Below, piece by piece: positions 25,130 through 33,189 of a stretch of 64,000 nucleotides of DNA. The notes below the pieces were generated by a model. The model searched no databases, was not told the DNA's origin, and saw only the letters and a list, made by a program, of their open reading frames with translations. The stretch is taken from contig JADZBD010000002.1 in NCBI GenBank assembly GCA_020852255.1, positions 1-64,000 on the forward strand, read 5' to 3'. Both the position numbers and the translations under genes were made by a program. Source of the stretch: Bacteroidia bacterium. Lineage in GTDB: Bacteria; Bacteroidota; Bacteroidia; JADZBD01. Each line of letters starts with the position of its first letter. Within the stretch, counting starts at the first letter, position 1.

Positions 25130-25717
25130 TTATTTCTTCTGTCGTACTTTCAGCACCTGAATTACATCGTCCAGTCTCTTCCCTTTCGCCTGAAGTAAAA
25201 TCAGGTAATGAAAAAGCAAGTCAGCTGCTTCATTCAAAAACAGCGCATCGTTGTTGTCCTTCGCTTCAATCACCAGCTCCGTTGCTTCCTCTCCTACCTT
25301 CTGGGCGATCTTGTTGATCCCCTTCGAGAAAAGGGATGCGGTATAGGAAGTGCTGTCAGTGCCGCTGCGCCGTGAAGCAATAACAGCTTCGAGCTGGAGT
25401 AGAAAATCAGGGGAAGTATTTACTTCCCGGAAGCAGGTGTCAGTACCGGTATGACAAACAGGACCCTGCGGTCTTACCTTTATCAGCAACGTATCCTGGT
25501 CGCAATCTTCGGTTAAGGATACCAGCTCCAGAAAATTTCCGCTTTCTTCCCCTTTCGTCCACAAGCGTTTTTTAGATCGAGAGTAGAAAGTTACCCGCTT
25601 GTCTGCTTTTGTCTTTTCCAGCGCTTCCTCATTCATGTAGCCCAGCATAAGAACCTTTCCGGTGCCGGCGTCCTGAATAATGGCCGGAATTAAGCCCCCT
25701 GTTTTTAAGAAGTCCAT
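25130..25717 (-). CDS. hisIE: Bifunctional phosphoribosyl-AMP cyclohydrolase / phosphoribosyl-ATP pyrophosphatase
   Basis: 195 residues. The N-terminal half (1-~110) is HisI: MLGYMNEEAL, FYSRSKKRLWTKGE, and the metal-binding DCDQDTLL plus CHTGTDTCF cysteines. The C-terminal half (~115-195) is HisE with VGEEATELVIEAK and NEAADLLFHYL, the acidic Mg-binding helices. It performs steps 2 and 3 of histidine synthesis. It is the last gene of the his operon, 10 bases after hisF. Confidence 0.96.
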   Translation of the reverse strand: MDFLKTGGLIPAIIQDAGTGKVLMLGYMNEEALEKTKADKRVTFYSRSKKRLWTKGEESGNFLELVSLTEDCDQDTLLIKVRPQGPVCHTGTDTCFREVNTSPDFLLQLEAVIASRRSGTDSTSYTASLFSKGINKIAQKVGEEATELVIEAKDNNDALFLNEAADLLFHYLILLQAKGKRLDDVIQVLKVRQKK

Positions 25718-25727
25718 AGTGTGTAAT

Positions 25728-26486
25728 TTAAACCGGACGAACCGGGATGTTCACGTCTGTTAAATATTTCTTGAGTTCAGCAATCTCTACTTCCCTGAAA
25801 TGAAAAATACTGGCCGCAAGCGCAGCATCTGCACAACCTTCCCTGAAAACATTTTCAAAATCCCTGATCGTACCAGCCCCCCCGGACGCAATAACCGGAA
25901 CAGGAACGGAATGGGAAACCATAGAGGTTAACGCCAGGTCAAAACCTTTTCTGGTTCCGTCTGCATCCATTGACGTAAGAAGTATTTCTCCCGCACCCCG
26001 GTTGCAGACTTCCCTCACCCAATCTCTTACACGGAGATCCGTACGCATGCGTCCTCCGTTCAGATAAACATACCAGTCATTCTCCTCCTTTTTTGCATCC
26101 ACTGCCAGAACAACACATTGAGATCCGAACCGGGAAGCCAGCTCCGTCAGGAGCTCAGGGCGGCGCACGGCAGCGCTGTTCACAGATATTTTATCGGCAC
26201 CACAAGCCAGCAGCGCGTGAACGTCATCAACCGATGTTACACCCCCACCCACTGTAAAAGGAATATTAACCACCTCCGCCACCCGCGAGACCAGTTCCGT
26301 CAGTGTTCTTCTCTTTTCGTTTGTTGCTGTGATATCCAGAAATATCAGTTCATCGGCACCTTCCTTCACATAACGGGCTCCCAACTCCACAGCGTCTCCC
26401 GCTTCCCGTAAATTCTCAAAGCTGACACCTTTGACGGTTTTACCGTCTTTGACATCCAGGCAGGGTATGATTCTTTTCGTTAACAT
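25728..26486 (-). CDS. hisF: Imidazole glycerol phosphate synthase cyclase subunit
   Basis: 252 residues, (beta/alpha)8 barrel. The start [17 protein letters not shown] holds the catalytic Asp of strand 1; VDAKKEE carries the second catalytic Asp; VIASGGAGT is the phosphate-binding loop. With HisH it converts PRFAR and ammonia into IGP and AICAR. It lies 14 bases downstream of hisA. Confidence 0.96.
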
Positions 26487-26500
26487 GGTGCTTACTATTT

Positions 26501-27226
26501 TCAGCTATTTCCTTCACGTTTGAGTTGGCCTGTTGAAATCTTTCCTTCATACAACGCTTTCCCGATAATCACACCTGTACATCCGGCTTCCTCCAGTGTC
26601 CTGATATCTTCCAGGTCACGCACTCCCCCGCTGGCAATCAGTTTCATTTCCGGAAAGCGTTTCAGCAGGCTTCTGTAAAGGTCCAGAGAGGGTCCCTGCA
26701 TCATCCCGTCTGCCGTAACATCCGTGCAGAAAAAACTAAGCACTCCGCTTTCCATGTACATTTCAATAAACGAATATACATCCAATGATGTATCCTCTGT
26801 CCATCCTTTCACCGCGATCCTGCCATTTTTCACATCTGCCCCAAACAGAAATTTCTCCTTCCCGAATCGAAGCAGCCAGTCTTTTACCTTTTTGGGGTCG
26901 CGAATAGCGAGAGAACCTATCCCCGCCCATGCCGCTCCCGCATCAAACACTTGCTTCAGAATACTGTCATCCGAAATACCACCGCTAAAATCAATTTTCA
27001 ATCCGGTGCCGGAAGCTAATCGGCGCAGGACATCCAGATTCTTTACACTCCCGCTGCGGGCTCCGTCCAGATCAACCAGGTGAAGACGTTTTACTCCGGC
27101 TTTCTCAAACCGCAAGGCGATCTCCAGCGGGTCAGATGCGTAGACCTTTTTTCTCAAAAAATCTCCCTGCGTCAGGCGCACACACTCTCCGTTAATTATA
27201 TCAATGGCCGGAATAAGATCTATCAT
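26501..27226 (-). CDS. hisA: ProFAR isomerase
   Basis: 241 residues. LIPAIDIINGECVRLTQGD with the catalytic Asp, DFSGGISDD and IASGGVRDLEDI phosphate loops, and FFCTDVTADGM with the second catalytic Asp (T-D in place of the usual position in strand 5). A half-barrel duplication shared with HisF is evident. It carries out the Amadori isomerisation of ProFAR. It overlaps hisH by four bases. Confidence 0.96.
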   Translation of the reverse strand: MIDLIPAIDIINGECVRLTQGDFLRKKVYASDPLEIALRFEKAGVKRLHLVDLDGARSGSVKNLDVLRRLASGTGLKIDFSGGISDDSILKQVFDAGAAWAGIGSLAIRDPKKVKDWLLRFGKEKFLFGADVKNGRIAVKGWTEDTSLDVYSFIEMYMESGVLSFFCTDVTADGMMQGPSLDLYRSLLKRFPEMKLIASGGVRDLEDIRTLEEAGCTGVIIGKALYEGKISTGQLKREGNS

Positions 27227-27810
27227 AGCGCGAGAAAATTTTTCAGGATCAGTTCTCCGGCCCGCCCCGACCGCTCCGGGTGGAACTGAACTGCAAAAAA
27301 ATTAGTACTGTGTACTGCAGAGGAATAGTTTATACCATACATTGTGGTTGCATCGGTGTGGCCGCACAATTCCATATAATATCCGTGCACGAAATAATAA
27401 TATGCCATATCCGGAACGCCGGAGAACAGCGGACTTTTTCCGGGAACTTTTTGTGCTCTATTCCAACCGACCTGCGGCACCTTCAGATCACCCGAAAATT
27501 TAATCACCCGGGCCGGAATAATACCCAGACAGGCCGTATGGCCCTCTTCCGAAAATGTTCCCATCAGTTGCATACCCAGACAAATTCCCAGCACCGGTTG
27601 CCGTAGAGAAACAATCACTTTGTCCAGTCCCCGGGTCCTGAGATACTGCATCGCACCTGACGCTTCACCTACCCCCGGAAAAATTACTTTATCCGCACCA
27701 CGGATCACGTCCGGGTCATCCGAAAGAACTGCTTCAGCGCCCAATCGCTTTAATGCGAACTGTACAGACTGTACATTTCCGGCATTGTATTTAATAATCA
27801 CCGTCTTCAT
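27223..27810 (-). CDS. hisH: Imidazole glycerol phosphate synthase glutaminase subunit
   Basis: 195 residues, class I glutamine amidotransferase. GICLGMQLMG contains the nucleophile Cys; VQFHPERSG supplies the His and Glu of the triad. It releases ammonia from glutamine and channels it to HisF. The start codon overlaps the hisB stop (TAATG) and the end overlaps hisA by four bases, so the order hisB-hisH-hisA is translationally coupled. Confidence 0.96.
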   Translation of the reverse strand: MKTVIIKYNAGNVQSVQFALKRLGAEAVLSDDPDVIRGADKVIFPGVGEASGAMQYLRTRGLDKVIVSLRQPVLGICLGMQLMGTFSEEGHTACLGIIPARVIKFSGDLKVPQVGWNRAQKVPGKSPLFSGVPDMAYYYFVHGYYMELCGHTDATTMYGINYSSAVHSTNFFAVQFHPERSGRAGELILKNFLAL

Positions 27811-28916
27811 TATATCATTCCTTTCGTAGTAGGCAGTATTCCCCGGGTGTCGCGGGTAACCGCCATCTTTATTGCTTTTGCAAACGCTTTGAATATGGAC
27901 TCTATCTTGTGATGCTCGTTGTCTCCTTCCGCTTTGATATTAAGATTGCACCGTGCCGCATCCGAAAATGATTTAAAGAAGTGATAGAACATTTCGGCAG
28001 GCATATCGCCCACCTTCTCCCGTTTGAATTCAGCCGACCATTCTATCCATGCTCTGCCTCCAAAGTCGATTGCCACCGAGGAGAGGCAATCATCCATCGG
28101 GAGATAAAACCCGTAGCGTTCTATTCCCCGTTTGTTACCCAATGCCTGCGCAAAGGCTTCACCCAGCGCGATGCCGGTATCTTCAATCGTGTGATGTTCA
28201 TCAATGTGCAAATCACCTTTTGCGGTAATACTGAGATCCAGTCCTCCATGACGGGCCAGCTGATCCAGCATGTGGTCAAAGAAATTCAAGCCGGTATCGA
28301 TAGCTGAAATGCCCGACCCCGATAGATTAAGTGCAACACGGATTTTTGTTTCGTTCGTATTTCTCTCGTGTACAACCGTACGGCACACCCGCACCAGGTA
28401 ATGATAAATCTCCTGCCAGTTACCTGCCACAAGATCAATCTTACTTTCCCATCCCGACGGATCATCATAATTGCGGATCAGCACGGCACGACTGCCCAGG
28501 TTCACCGCCAGTTTAACATCCGTGATCCGGTCGCCGATCACTACAGAAGATGCAAGATCATAATCGCCGGATAAATATTTTTTCAGCATTCCGGTGTTGG
28601 GTTTCCGGGTGGGAAGATTCTCCTTCTCAAAGGATTTGTCCACACAAACTTCAGAAAAACGGATACCCTCTCTTTCCAGTGCTCTCATCATTTTCCCCTG
28701 CACAAGGTCAAACGCTTCCTGCGGATAAGCGGCGGTTCCGAGGCCATCCTGATTGGTCACCATGACCAGTTCGAAATCGAGTTCGCGGCATATCTTTCCC
28801 AGCCAGGTGAAAACTCCCGGAATAAATTCCAGCTTATCCAGGCTGTCAATCTGAAAGTTATCCGGAGGTTCCCATATCAGTGTTCCATCGCGGTCAATAA
28901 ATAAAATCTTTTTCAT
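27810..28916 (-). CDS. hisB: Bifunctional histidinol-phosphatase / imidazole glycerol phosphate dehydratase
   Basis: 368 residues from the ATG at 28916 (MKKILFIDRDGTL). A longer frame begins at 29000 inside hisC but its extra 28 residues are not family-like. Residues 1-~165 are a HAD phosphatase with the DRDGT nucleophile motif; residues ~175-368 are IGPD with HHTIED and EHHKIE, the two Mn-binding histidine motifs. It catalyses steps 7 and 9 of the pathway. The fused form is known from enterobacteria and many Bacteroidota. Two bases separate it from the hisC stop. Confidence 0.96.
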   Translation of the reverse strand: MKKILFIDRDGTLIWEPPDNFQIDSLDKLEFIPGVFTWLGKICRELDFELVMVTNQDGLGTAAYPQEAFDLVQGKMMRALEREGIRFSEVCVDKSFEKENLPTRKPNTGMLKKYLSGDYDLASSVVIGDRITDVKLAVNLGSRAVLIRNYDDPSGWESKIDLVAGNWQEIYHYLVRVCRTVVHERNTNETKIRVALNLSGSGISAIDTGLNFFDHMLDQLARHGGLDLSITAKGDLHIDEHHTIEDTGIALGEAFAQALGNKRGIERYGFYLPMDDCLSSVAIDFGGRAWIEWSAEFKREKVGDMPAEMFYHFFKSFSDAARCNLNIKAEGDNEHHKIESIFKAFAKAIKMAVTRDTRGILPTTKGMI

Positions 28917-28918
28917 CG

Positions 28919-29974
28919 TTATGTTGTAAGCGTTAATGTGTTGAGTAAGTTCAGCAGGATGGTGTTTTGCTCCATCGTTCCTATTGTTATTCTGAGGCAT
29001 CCCTCACATAATGGCACATCCGACCTGTCACGCACCACCACACCAGCCCGGAGAAGCGAAGCGTATATTTTTTTTGGATCCCTCACCTTCACCAGTAGAA
29101 AGTTCGCATCCGAGGGGTAAACTTTTTCCACGAGCTTGCATTGTTCAAGAGCTGCCGCCAGTAATTTCCTGTTGGTGATGATGATCCTGACCGCATTGTC
29201 CGTCCATGTTTCATTTGCAAGTGCATTCAGTGCCGCTTTCTGGGTAAGGGTACTGATGTTGTAGGGAGGTTTAACTGCGTTGAAATACCTGATCACCTGC
29301 CTGCTGGCAACAGCAATACCTAAGCGAATTCCGGCCATACCCATCGCTTTAGAGAATGTTTGCAGTACAACCAAATTAGGGTACTTCTCAATGAGTCCGG
29401 TCAGCGACGGCTGGCCGGAAAAGTGAACATATGCCTCATCCACCACCACTATACCCGGAAAAGTGTCAAGCACACGCAGAATCTGTTCAGCCGGAAAACA
29501 GTTTCCGCTGGGATTATTCGGAGAACAAATGAATACGAGTTTCAATTGCCTCTGATCCTTCATACGGGAAAAGTCTTTTTCCGGAAACGTAAAATCAGGA
29601 CCCAAGGGCAGATTTACAATTTCCACACCATTAATGGAAGCTGCTACGGCATACATCCCATACGTTGGCGGAAAAAGCAGCACTTTATCCGTACCCGGAT
29701 CACAGAAAATGCGAAAAAGAAGATCAATGGCTTCATCTGACCCATTTCCCAGGAAGAGCTGAGAAGGGCTAACGTTCAGCCGTTTTGCGAGCGCGTTTTT
29801 AAGTTTCCGCTGAAACGGGTCGGGATAACGGTTCATCCCTTTTTCTTCAGGGTCACCGAGGCAGTTTTCATTGGCATCCAGGAAAACCGAAGCCTCACCG
29901 TTAAACTCATCCCTTGCGGAAGAATACGGCCTGAGTTGCCTTATGTTTTCCCGAACCAGCAGGTCTATATTCAT
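28919..29974 (-). CDS. hisC: Histidinol-phosphate aminotransferase
   Basis: 351 residues, PLP fold type I. GNGSDEAIDLL binds cofactor phosphate, SPNNPSGN and VVDEAYVHF contact the ring, LQTFSKAMGMAG holds the Schiff-base Lys, and LRITIG includes the substrate carboxylate Arg. It transfers the amino group from glutamate to imidazole acetol phosphate. The start overlaps the end of hisD by four bases. Confidence 0.96.
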   Translation of the reverse strand: MNIDLLVRENIRQLRPYSSARDEFNGEASVFLDANENCLGDPEEKGMNRYPDPFQRKLKNALAKRLNVSPSQLFLGNGSDEAIDLLFRIFCDPGTDKVLLFPPTYGMYAVAASINGVEIVNLPLGPDFTFPEKDFSRMKDQRQLKLVFICSPNNPSGNCFPAEQILRVLDTFPGIVVVDEAYVHFSGQPSLTGLIEKYPNLVVLQTFSKAMGMAGIRLGIAVASRQVIRYFNAVKPPYNISTLTQKAALNALANETWTDNAVRIIITNRKLLAAALEQCKLVEKVYPSDANFLLVKVRDPKKIYASLLRAGVVVRDRSDVPLCEGCLRITIGTMEQNTILLNLLNTLTLTT

Positions 29975-31269
29975 TTCATTTCCTTTTTGCTTCCTTTTAG
30001 CCGGATTCGTACGGCCTCCGCATGCGCTTCAAGTCCTTCCGCCCGTGCCATAGTGATAACGGAAGGACCCAGGCGAACGAGGCCGGCCTGACTCACTTCC
30101 TGAAAAGTAATCTTCTTCACAAAACTGTCTACCGACACCCCTGACCATGCCCGGGCGTATCCGTTCGTGGGAAGAGTATGATTCGGACCCGTTGCATAAT
30201 CGCCAAGACTTTCACAGGAATAATTTCCAATAAATACAGAGCCGGCATTACAAACTCCGGAAGCATACATCTTTGCTTTCCTGCATGCCAGTATCAGGTG
30301 CTCCGGAGCATAATCATTTATCCAGTTCATTCCCTCCCGCATACTCCGGACCAGGATGGCCCTGCTTTCGGCTAGTGAGCGACGCGCAGTGGATGCTCTC
30401 GGTAAATTCTTCAACTGAGCTTCCAGTTCCCTGTTAACCTGTTCGGCAAAACGACGATTATCCGTAACCAATATTACCTGTGAATCAGGACCATGTTCGG
30501 CCTGTGACAAAAGATCTGCTGCTACAAAAGAAGCATTCGCGGAAGTATCTGCCAACACTGCCACTTCCGAAGGACCAGCGGGCATATCAACAGCTATCCC
30601 TTCCGAGAGCACCCTCTGCTTTGCAAGCGTTACATAGCGGTTCCCCGGCCCGAATATTTTGTCGCAGGGGCGAATGGTCTCGGTTCCATAGGCCATAGCC
30701 GCCACTGCCTGAGCGCCACCGCAGCGGACAATTTTTCTTACACCAGCCTTCGCCGCAGCGTACAGAATGGCCGGGTGTATACTTCCATCTTTACCCGGAG
30801 GAGTGAATATCACCACCTCCCGGCAACCCGCAAGCCGTGCAGGAATTCCCAGCATGAGTACCGTTGAGAACAAAGGAGCAGTTCCCCCGGGAATGTATAA
30901 ACCGACTCTTGTTACAGGAACCGATTTCCTCCATGCTTTTACGCCGGGCATAATCATTACCGCTTTTTCCTTTTCACACTGCGACTTGTGAAAACGGCTA
31001 ATATTTTTTGCTGCAAGATCGATCGCTTTTTTCAAATCCGGATCAAGTTTCACTGTACCCGCTCCCGGTACCCGTATTTCCAGCTCATGGGGAAAATATC
31101 CGTCCAGTTCCAACGTGAGCTCACGCAACGCCTTATCACCCTCCGCTCTCACCCGGCGCAGAATTTCGTTAACGCTTTCACGCACCGGTTCCGCGCCCAA
31201 AGAAGGTCGTAAAAGCGAAGCGCGCTTTTCCTCCCTGCTCATACTATTCCACTCGAATGTTCTTAGCAT
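29971..31269 (-). CDS. hisD: Histidinol dehydrogenase
   Basis: 432 residues, full length. VGLYIPGGTAPLFSTVLM, MPAGPSEVAVLAD, DLLSQAEHGPDSQV (zinc ligands) and NHTLPTNGYARAWSGVSVDSF (substrate and zinc contact) are all present. It performs the last two oxidations from histidinol to histidine with NAD and Zn. It lies 25 bases after the hisG stop. Confidence 0.97.
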   Translation of the reverse strand: MLRTFEWNSMSREEKRASLLRPSLGAEPVRESVNEILRRVRAEGDKALRELTLELDGYFPHELEIRVPGAGTVKLDPDLKKAIDLAAKNISRFHKSQCEKEKAVMIMPGVKAWRKSVPVTRVGLYIPGGTAPLFSTVLMLGIPARLAGCREVVIFTPPGKDGSIHPAILYAAAKAGVRKIVRCGGAQAVAAMAYGTETIRPCDKIFGPGNRYVTLAKQRVLSEGIAVDMPAGPSEVAVLADTSANASFVAADLLSQAEHGPDSQVILVTDNRRFAEQVNRELEAQLKNLPRASTARRSLAESRAILVRSMREGMNWINDYAPEHLILACRKAKMYASGVCNAGSVFIGNYSCESLGDYATGPNHTLPTNGYARAWSGVSVDSFVKKITFQEVSQAGLVRLGPSVITMARAEGLEAHAEAVRIRLKGSKKEMK

Positions 31270-31294: not shown

Positions 31295-32152
31295 TCATAT
31301 GATCATTTTCTCTATAGGAACAACGAGGATACCCTGTGCGCCATTTTTCTTCAGCAGTTCAATGATTTCCCAAAAATCATCCTCCTTAACCACACTGTGC
31401 ACAGAGCTCCAGCCCTTCCGGTGCAACGGAAGAATCGTAGGGCTTTTCATGCCGGGAAGAATCGAGCAGATTTTATCCAGCTTTTTATCCGGCACATTCA
31501 GCAGAATATACTTGTTGTTCCCGGCCTGGCGGAGTGCATTGATCCGGAACAGGAGGCGGGAAAGCAGTACCCTTTTCTCCTTTCCCAGTGATTTACCCGC
31601 CACCAGCATCGCCTGTGACTTCATTACCGTTTCCACCTCCTTCAGGCCGTTTGAAAAAAGCGTACTGCCTGAACTTACAAGATCACAGATCGCATCCGAT
31701 AATCCGATCCCGGGAGCAATCTCCACAGATCCGCTGATTGTATGAATGTCTGCCCGCACTCTTTTTCGTTTCAAAAAATCGCTCAGCAGATCCGGATAAC
31801 TGGTTGCAATCCTTTTGCCGTTAATACTCTGTATTCCTTTCCAGTCCATTTCCTTCGGTACCGCAAGCGAGAGGCGGCATCTGCCGAATCCCAGAGGAAG
31901 TACGTTTTCCACCCGCCTTTTCTTCTCTTCCAGCACATTTTCGCCGACGATTCCAATATCGGCCACCCCGTCCTGCACATACTGAGGGATATCATCGTCG
32001 CGGAAGAAGTACACTTCCAAAGGGAAGTTATGAGCCTCTGCCTTTAGTTTATTCATTCCATTATTGATCACGATGCCACATTCACGGAGCATCCGGAGGG
32101 AGTCGTCGAATAAACGACCTGATTTCTGTACTGCGATCTTAAGTTTTGTCAT
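31295..32152 (-). CDS. hisG: ATP phosphoribosyltransferase, long form
   Basis: 285 residues, the long form that carries its own C-terminal ACT-like regulatory domain (~210-285) and so needs no HisZ. IAVQKSGRL at the start, DIGIVGEN, and EIAPGIGLSDAICDLVSSGSTL (PRPP loop) are typical. It makes PR-ATP from ATP and PRPP and in this family is feedback-inhibited by histidine. The ATG lies 12 bases after the T-run of the leader terminator, so transcription of the structural genes depends on read-through of that attenuator. Confidence 0.97.
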   Translation of the reverse strand: MTKLKIAVQKSGRLFDDSLRMLRECGIVINNGMNKLKAEAHNFPLEVYFFRDDDIPQYVQDGVADIGIVGENVLEEKKRRVENVLPLGFGRCRLSLAVPKEMDWKGIQSINGKRIATSYPDLLSDFLKRKRVRADIHTISGSVEIAPGIGLSDAICDLVSSGSTLFSNGLKEVETVMKSQAMLVAGKSLGKEKRVLLSRLLFRINALRQAGNNKYILLNVPDKKLDKICSILPGMKSPTILPLHRKGWSSVHSVVKEDDFWEIIELLKKNGAQGILVVPIEKMII

Positions 32153-32164
32153 ACGAACAAGTGT

Positions 32165-32197
32165 TAAATAAAAAAGGGCTTACCACTGGTAAGCCCT
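32165..32197 (-). terminator. Attenuator terminator of the his operon
   Basis: On the minus strand AGGGCTTACC (32197-32188), loop AGT, GGTAAGCCCT (32184-32175) makes a perfect 10-bp stem followed by TTTTTATTT. It lies between the leader peptide gene and hisG. The segment GGTAGGCC (32229-32222), which overlaps the leader stop codon, can pair over eight bases (one G-U) with GGCTTACC of the terminator's 5' arm, giving a mutually exclusive antiterminator. Confidence 0.9.
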
Positions 32198-32224
32198 GTA
32201 TCATTTTGCACAATACCCTGCGGC

Positions 32225-32275
32225 CTACCCTTTCGGATAAGAAGCGTGATGGTGATTGTGGAATTGGTTATTCAT
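32225..32275 (-). CDS. hisL: Histidine operon leader peptide
   Basis: A 16-codon ORF, MNNQFHNHHHASYPKG followed by TAG, too short for ordinary gene calling. Four of its 16 codons are His (positions 6, 8, 9, 10), it lies 72 bases upstream of hisG, and it is followed by the attenuator hairpin. By analogy with enterobacterial hisL, a shortage of charged tRNA-His would stall the ribosome at codons 6-10. That leaves GGTAGGCC, 17 bases beyond the last His codon, free to pair with the terminator and let transcription continue; with histidine plentiful the ribosome reaches the stop codon and covers that segment. A -7 element ends 8 bases before the ATG, so the mRNA may have almost no 5' leader. Confidence 0.88.
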   Translation of the reverse strand: MNNQFHNHHHASYPKG

Positions 32276-32282
32276 CCGGCGG

Positions 32283-32290
32283 CAAATATA
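32283..32290 (-). promoter_or_regulatory. -7 promoter element of the his operon
   Basis: Minus-strand TATATTTG, a perfect TANNTTTG match. No TTG is found at the expected distance upstream. It places the transcription start within a few bases of the leader ATG at 32275. Confidence 0.6.
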
Positions 32291-32311
32291 TGAATATTTT
32301 TAAATACACGG

Positions 32312-32319
32312 TATCTTTG
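32312..32319 (+). promoter_or_regulatory. -7 promoter element for the ChaN-like gene
   Basis: TATCTTTG, a perfect match, 15 bases before the ATG at 32335. It is back to back with the his promoter, 21 bases away. Confidence 0.65.
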
Positions 32320-32334
32320 CCAAAATCATAAAAA

Positions 32335-33189
32335 ATGAAAAAATCGCTCTATGTCATTCTGGCTGCTATTGGCCTGGGATTCACCGGAAGTAAGGAAGCC
32401 TATAAATTCTTTGATCAGGCGGGTAAGGAAAGTAAATATGAGGCGGTGCTGAAAGCGGCAGCAGAAGCTGACATCGTTTTTTTCGGGGAGCTGCATGATA
32501 ACCCCATCCATCACTGGTTGCAATATGAGCTGGCAAAAGATCTCCACGAACTAAAGAAAACGAATCTGCTGATGGGTGCGGAAATGCTTGAATCGGACGA
32601 TCAGCTGGTAGTGAATGAGTACCTGACCGGAAAGATTTCCGAAAAAACCTTTAAAGATGAATGCAAATTATGGCCGAACCACAAAACAGATTACAAACCC
32701 CTTTTGGATTTTGCAAAAACATATAAACTACAATTCATCGCAACCAATATTCCCAGAAGGTATGCCAACCTGGTATACACCAAAGGACTCTCCGCGTTAG
32801 ACAGCCTGGAACCCGGAGCGAAGCAGTGGATGGTGCCGCTTCCAATGAAATACAACGGCGATCTCAAATGCTATAAAGACATTGTGGCGAACGCAGGCGG
32901 GCATGGAGGAGATAACCTTCCCAAATCACAAGCGATCAAAGATGCCACCATGGCCCATTTCATTCTGAAAAACTGGTCAAAGGGAAAACTTTTCCTTCAC
33001 TTCAACGGCAGCTATCATTCCAACTACCATGAAAGCATCTGCTGGTACCTGAAGCAGGAAAAGCCCGACCTTAAGATCGTGGTAATATCATCGGCAATGC
33101 AGAAGTCTCTCGCCGTTCTGGAGAAGGAAAATGAGAAACTGGGCGATTTTGTTCTGGTGACGCCTGAAAACATGACCCGTACCCATTGA
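32335..33189 (+). CDS. ChaN-like (Cofac_haem_bdg_2) probable haem-binding protein
   Basis: 284 residues. The N-terminus MKKSLYVILAAIGLGFTG is hydrophobic and probably a signal peptide, without a lipobox Cys. FFGELHDNPIHHWLQ, LLMGAEMLESDDQ and the later HFILKNWSKGKLFLHFNGSYHS match the ChaN/PF04187 family, in which a conserved GE-x-H motif and downstream residues bind haem or a related cofactor. Family members are periplasmic or outer-membrane and linked to iron uptake; here no iron gene is adjacent and no Fur box was recognised. Two bases separate it from tag. Confidence 0.8.
   Translation: MKKSLYVILAAIGLGFTGSKEAYKFFDQAGKESKYEAVLKAAAEADIVFFGELHDNPIHHWLQYELAKDLHELKKTNLLMGAEMLESDDQLVVNEYLTGKISEKTFKDECKLWPNHKTDYKPLLDFAKTYKLQFIATNIPRRYANLVYTKGLSALDSLEPGAKQWMVPLPMKYNGDLKCYKDIVANAGGHGGDNLPKSQAIKDATMAHFILKNWSKGKLFLHFNGSYHSNYHESICWYLKQEKPDLKIVVISSAMQKSLAVLEKENEKLGDFVLVTPENMTRTH

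Follow-up and report, generated by a model that had tools for sequence, protein, structure and literature searches.

A predicted ribosome-mediated attenuator ahead of the histidine operon of a Bacteroidia bacterium, with counterparts across the class

The histidine operon on the minus strand of the window, by which is meant here the whole 64-kb stretch of DNA that was analysed, is preceded by a leader region that very probably works as a transcription attenuator of the classical, ribosome-mediated kind known from trp and his operons, as judged from its sequence and that of its relatives. The parts of such an attenuator are present, its antiterminator and terminator exclude each other, the pairings are conserved among relatives with compensating changes, and the spacing along the leader has the corresponding geometry. 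An earlier reading of this DNA made from the letters alone (the sequence-only reading) had proposed a his attenuator that combines a His-rich leader peptide with a mutually exclusive antiterminator and terminator, and both parts of that proposal are supported by a comparison across the class Bacteroidia.

The locus and its leader

The window holds a complete hisGDCBHAF(IE) operon on the minus strand with hisG leading (Table 1). Read along that strand, the -7 element TATATTTG is followed by the leader ORF MNNQFHNHHHASYPKG, then by a 10-bp hairpin with its T-tract (32197-32166) and finally by hisG, the ATG of which lies at 32152. On the far side of the promoter a plus-strand ORF begins at 32335 and is divergent to the his promoter, and because this gene is divergent the hairpin cannot belong to the 3' end of a gene upstream. 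The divergent ORF (284 aa, 32335-33189) is without an NCBIfam match; a second perfect -7 box, TATCTTTG, lies ahead of it on the plus strand, within 32305-32320, and a 60-bp intergenic region is common to both promoters.

The leader consists of 16 codons (ATG AAT AAC CAA TTC CAC AAT CAC CAT CAC GCT TCT TAT CCG AAA GGG TAG, the last being the stop) with four His in five positions, and the locus therefore carries a short ORF rich in the amino acid that the operon produces. The chance controls for a His-rich small ORF covered the whole 64-kb window as well as shuffled sequences, and no other ORF of 8-40 aa that starts with ATG in the window has four or more His in six residues. A genome-wide pattern count of His triplets gave hundreds of sites and was uninformative.

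Table 1. Positions of the features of the his leader region and operon within the window
Feature	Position	Strand	Basis or remark
-7 element TATATTTG (Bacteroidota consensus TAnnTTTG)	32283..32290	-	perfect match, read directly
his leader ORF MNNQFHNHHHASYPKG, stop TAG included	32225..32275	-	read directly; counterparts in relatives
Regulatory His codons CAC AAT CAC CAT CAC	32246..32260	-	outer 1:2 stem takes in their 5' part, paired with 32217-32209
Segment 1, CTTATCC, inside the Ser-Tyr-Pro codons	32235..32241	-	pairs with 32230-32224, GAAA loop, -7.3 kcal/mol
Segment 2, GGGTAGGCC, across the leader stop codon	32222..32230	-	pairs with segment 1 as protector or with segment 3 as antiterminator
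Spacer	32198..32217	-	RNA folds: 32217-32209 and the His codons close the outer 1:2 stem
Segment 3, GGCTTACC	32188..32195	-	terminator 5' arm; partner of segment 2
Intrinsic terminator hairpin (segments 3:4)	32175..32197	-	10 bp, 3-nt loop AGT, -16.0 kcal/mol
hisG, first gene of the operon	31295..32152	-	NCBIfam TIGR00070 and TIGR03455 above cut-off
hisD, hisC, hisB (bifunctional), hisH, hisA, hisF, hisIE	25130..31269	-	NCBIfam equivalog models, each above cut-off

Competing structures in the leader RNA

The RNA of the leader region folds better than its shuffled counterparts (z = -4.3, with 0 of 200 shuffles as good), and three helices, 1:2, 2:3 and 3:4, compete within it. The T-tract that follows the 3:4 hairpin runs to about 32166, and the terminator is strong by consensus; the 10-bp hairpin and the T-run before hisG had been seen correctly in the sequence-only reading, but the gap from T-tract to ATG is about 13 bases and not the 12 it gave. 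The antiterminator is formed by GGTAGGCC (32229-32222) and GGCTTACC (32195-32188), which pair over 8 bp with one G-U, and the helix has a free energy of -16.9 kcal/mol when a small hairpin in its loop, an alternative fold of the spacer (32216-32210/32204-32198), is included. The same reading had noted this eight-base pairing with the 5' arm of the terminator, although it placed the beginning of GGTAGGCC one base before the TAG (32227-32225), where two is correct. The protector is the hairpin CTTATCC-GAAA-GGGTAGG (-7.3 kcal/mol), which is extended to 18 bp and -18.1 kcal/mol when the His-codon region CACAATCAC pairs with the spacer GGTATTGTG as an outer stem. There is thus a terminator between leader and hisG, an antiterminator that excludes it and a protector 1:2 over the regulatory codons. 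The single-locus p for the segment 1:2 pairing in the window is a modest 0.17, and for this reason the 1:2 hairpin of the window rests on its fold and on the pooled relatives considered below.

When folding began at the edge of a ribosome stalled at the His codons and ran through segment 3, the RNA preferred the 2:3 helix, and when the ribosome edge lay past segment 2, with the ribosome at the stop codon, 2:3 was lost and 3:4 formed; these are equilibrium folds of fragments, which illustrate the logic and are no proof of kinetics.

Comparison across the Bacteroidia

The family and order to which the window belongs yielded two genomes only, and the class Bacteroidia was sampled instead, giving 201 hisG upstream regions, 197 of them full-length; a few loci found in both collections are near-duplicates. 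Short ORFs in which three or more of eight residues are His occurred in 177 of the 197 full-length regions, as against 10-17 when these were shuffled, and for four or more of eight the corresponding figures were 153 and 0-2. Between the leader stop and hisG a terminator hairpin was found at 155 of the 178 loci with a called leader, 150 of these terminators being strong enough for the pairing tests. The search of related genomes for a His-run ORF before hisG and a covarying pairing, which the sequence-only reading had put forward as a check, therefore found both across the Bacteroidia. A His-rich ORF was missing in about 20 of the 197 full-length regions. No His-rich leader was found upstream of hisG in L033, L035, L036, L040, L045 and L047-L049, which are mostly Bacteroidales, suggesting that attenuation may have been lost in some lineages.

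Segments 2 and 3 co-vary between families, the pairs being GGTAAGCC/GGCTTACC, CTCAGGCG/CGTCTGAG and CGGTAGGCT/GGCTTGCCG, and segments tested with their own partners had a mean 2:3 score of 18.0, whereas none of 10,000 random re-pairings exceeded 15.4. Of 396 genomes searched for the exact 2-3-4 segment pattern, 14 contain it, and in each the coordinates put it immediately before the hisG match; the reversed pattern, used as a control, had no matches. An unregulated leaky terminator that sets basal his expression, beside which the His-rich ORF would be incidental, would account for a hairpin that is strong by consensus, but there is no same-strand upstream gene that needs a terminator, the neighbour at 32335 being divergent, and the His-rich ORF, the terminator and the covarying antiterminator recur jointly across the class, which makes such a terminator extremely unlikely as the whole explanation.

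For segments 1 and 2 the single-locus test was significant at only 18 of 150 loci; it has low power with segments this short, and it missed the Flavobacteriaceae, in which the partner of segment 1 overlaps segment 2. The test being weak, pooled tests were used. Among relatives the pooled z was 7.4 for the segment 1:2 pairing (54 relatives), 10.6 for the pairing of the His region with the spacer and -25 for the whole pre-terminator fold, values that ignore the kinship of the relatives and so overstate significance, yet all the tests point in the same direction. Loci whose segments are of the CTCAGGCG type likewise have a hairpin at the 1:2 site (-5.7 kcal/mol, where -3.1 kcal/mol was expected). 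It had been supposed that the element has no separate pause hairpin and is simpler than its enterobacterial equivalent, and this has to be abandoned in view of the 18-bp 1:2 hairpin and its support in relatives. Since that hairpin is present, takes in the His codons and has comparative support, the layout is the textbook four-segment one of 1:2, 2:3 and 3:4.

In the window segment 2 overlaps the leader stop codon, a point on which the sequence-only reading had also laid weight. Of the 117 relatives in which segment 2 is well supported, 44 show this overlap, which is thus frequent without being the rule. It is common among segments of the GGTARGCC type, whose motif contains the stop codon TAA or TAG.

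Ribosome position and the proposed mechanism

Ribosome positions were modelled by assuming that coverage extends 12 nt past the first base of the A site. When the A site holds the last His codon, segment 2 begins a median of 3 nt past the ribosome edge; when it holds the stop codon, the edge has moved past segment 2 in 93% of loci. For the window itself, a ribosome halted at His codons 8 to 10 would extend over part or all of segment 1, with segment 2 still free. Modelled in this way, stalling exposes segment 2 and arrival at the stop codon hides it, a geometry that fits classical attenuation.

The sequence of events envisaged is as follows. RNA polymerase would start a few bases ahead of the leader ATG, and a ribosome would translate the leader. 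With scarce His-tRNA the ribosome would stall on the His codons and cover segment 1, so that segment 2 would be free to pair with segment 3, the terminator would be blocked and hisG and the genes after it would be transcribed. With ample His-tRNA the ribosome would reach the TAG within segment 2 and mask that segment, allowing the 3:4 terminator to form. If the leader were untranslated, 1:2 would form and the terminator would be expected to form too.

Promoter and transcription start

The -7 box of Flavobacterium psychrophilum occupies positions -12 to -5 relative to mapped transcription starts in the published transcriptome of that organism (PMC9723704), and application of this spacing here places the predicted start near 32278, so that the leader ATG would be preceded by a 5' UTR of only about 3 nt. 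A perfect -7 box close to the ATG had been pointed out before, but the gap between them is 7 bases and not 8. No convincing -33 element was seen at the his promoter. It is plausible that the his leader of the window is nearly leaderless, and leaders of this kind are likely to be over-represented among the sampled relatives, because a perfect box lies 4-12 nt ahead of the leader ATG at 44 of 150 loci, compared with 20 of 1082 other ATGs, while 5' UTRs of less than 10 nt make up about 3.7% in Bacteroides thetaiotaomicron (PMC7366714) and leaderless mRNAs 5.5% in the F. psychrophilum account (PMC9723704). The distance from box to leader ATG in relatives was in no case below 4 nt, the smallest gap that would still let transcription start at the ATG.

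Relation to known attenuators

No relevant Rfam family turned up at the site, whether the gathering or a permissive threshold was applied; the RF00514 His_leader covariance model had no match even at E <= 10, and the T-box model RF00230 had no match at the site. These searches bear on the suggestion that histidine or His-tRNA is sensed by the RNA alone, as in a T-box or riboswitch, or by a protein, the leader ORF being secondary. The 5' region is indeed structured and new riboswitches are possible in principle, but at the site no Rfam family reached its gathering score and none did better than chance, and what is conserved is a His-codon run of variable length together with short complementary segments, with no aptamer-like core, so that sensing of this kind is scarcely credible and the least probable of the explanations weighed here.

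Classical attenuation by a translating ribosome has close parallels elsewhere. The element resembles enterobacterial hisL (RF00514) in its run of His codons, its exclusive antiterminator and terminator and its position before hisG. The enterobacterial his leader peptide is about 16 codons long, as is the one here. The enterobacterial attenuator differs in having an extra hairpin between the pause hairpin and the terminator (PMC1183508), whereas one protector hairpin was identified here before the terminator and the transcript is predicted to start nearly leaderless. The four-segment logic (1:2 / 2:3 / 3:4), with one protector hairpin that includes regulatory codons, is that of the Escherichia coli trp attenuator, from which the window differs in that it is predicted to sense His and not Trp and has its stop codon inside segment 2.

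Attenuators in Bacteroidetes/Chlorobi were reportedly listed by Vitreschak and colleagues in 2004 (FEMS Microbiol Lett). The F. psychrophilum transcriptome study describes clues to leader-peptide attenuation before amino-acid operons, and also a structured 5' element of hisG that is conserved in the Flavobacteriaceae and is without an Rfam hit; it concerns the same gene and the same class as the element described here but covers one family, and its main text is without a segment-level model (PMC9723704). A leader ORF at the very 5' end of the mRNA also has counterparts, as Sinorhizobium trpL mRNA begins at its ATG (PMC7298713) and the Corynebacterium ilvB leader has been discussed in terms of leaderless initiation (PMC11857589). 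By analogy with these a nearly leaderless attenuator leader would not be unprecedented, although they belong to other phyla and concern other amino acids, and the start is only predicted here.

Judged from sequence, then, the attenuation mechanism is classical and the element is found in nearly all the sampled Bacteroidia with a recognisable hisG, and classical ribosome-mediated attenuation is likely to be the standard control of histidine synthesis in the class. The Bacteroidia are largely without Shine-Dalgarno sequences and the element is without an Rfam entry; many of the leader genes have been missed by annotation, and they form a natural set for the study of attenuation with nearly leaderless leaders.

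Leaders without a terminator

Some loci have a leader but no terminator, and the output step is therefore not universal. This subset bears on the proposal that the leader acts in some other way, for instance by coupling its translation to that of hisG, by termination that depends on Rho or by a trans-acting peptide, with the intrinsic terminator as one output only. Sinorhizobium has an attenuator peptide, peTrpL, that does act in trans (PMC7298713). However, a strong terminator with a T-tract lies between leader and hisG in the window and in about 150 regions in all, and for the window this proposal is very unlikely to replace attenuation at the intrinsic terminator.

There are 13 aligned loci (L030, L094, L103, L115, L118, L126, L129, L131, L133, L144, L157, L169 and L176) in which the leader ends in HHxHHSS or similar and a hairpin, TTCCTC-(stop)-GAGGAA, lies across the leader stop codon. 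Most of them have no confident intrinsic terminator before hisG, and they possibly use Rho-dependent or translational attenuation. It is conceivable, though rather doubtful, that the class has a design of its own, in which leaders are leaderless or nearly so, segment 2 often lies over the stop codon and a Rho-dependent or translational output has replaced the terminator in the HHxHHSS sub-lineage. In four further loci, from Marinoscillum and relatives (L007, L011, L019 and L023), no terminator hairpin was found before hisG; a leader with many His codons lies about 75-140 nt before the gene, and in two of the four it has eight His in a row (MNYVVKHHHHHHHHC).
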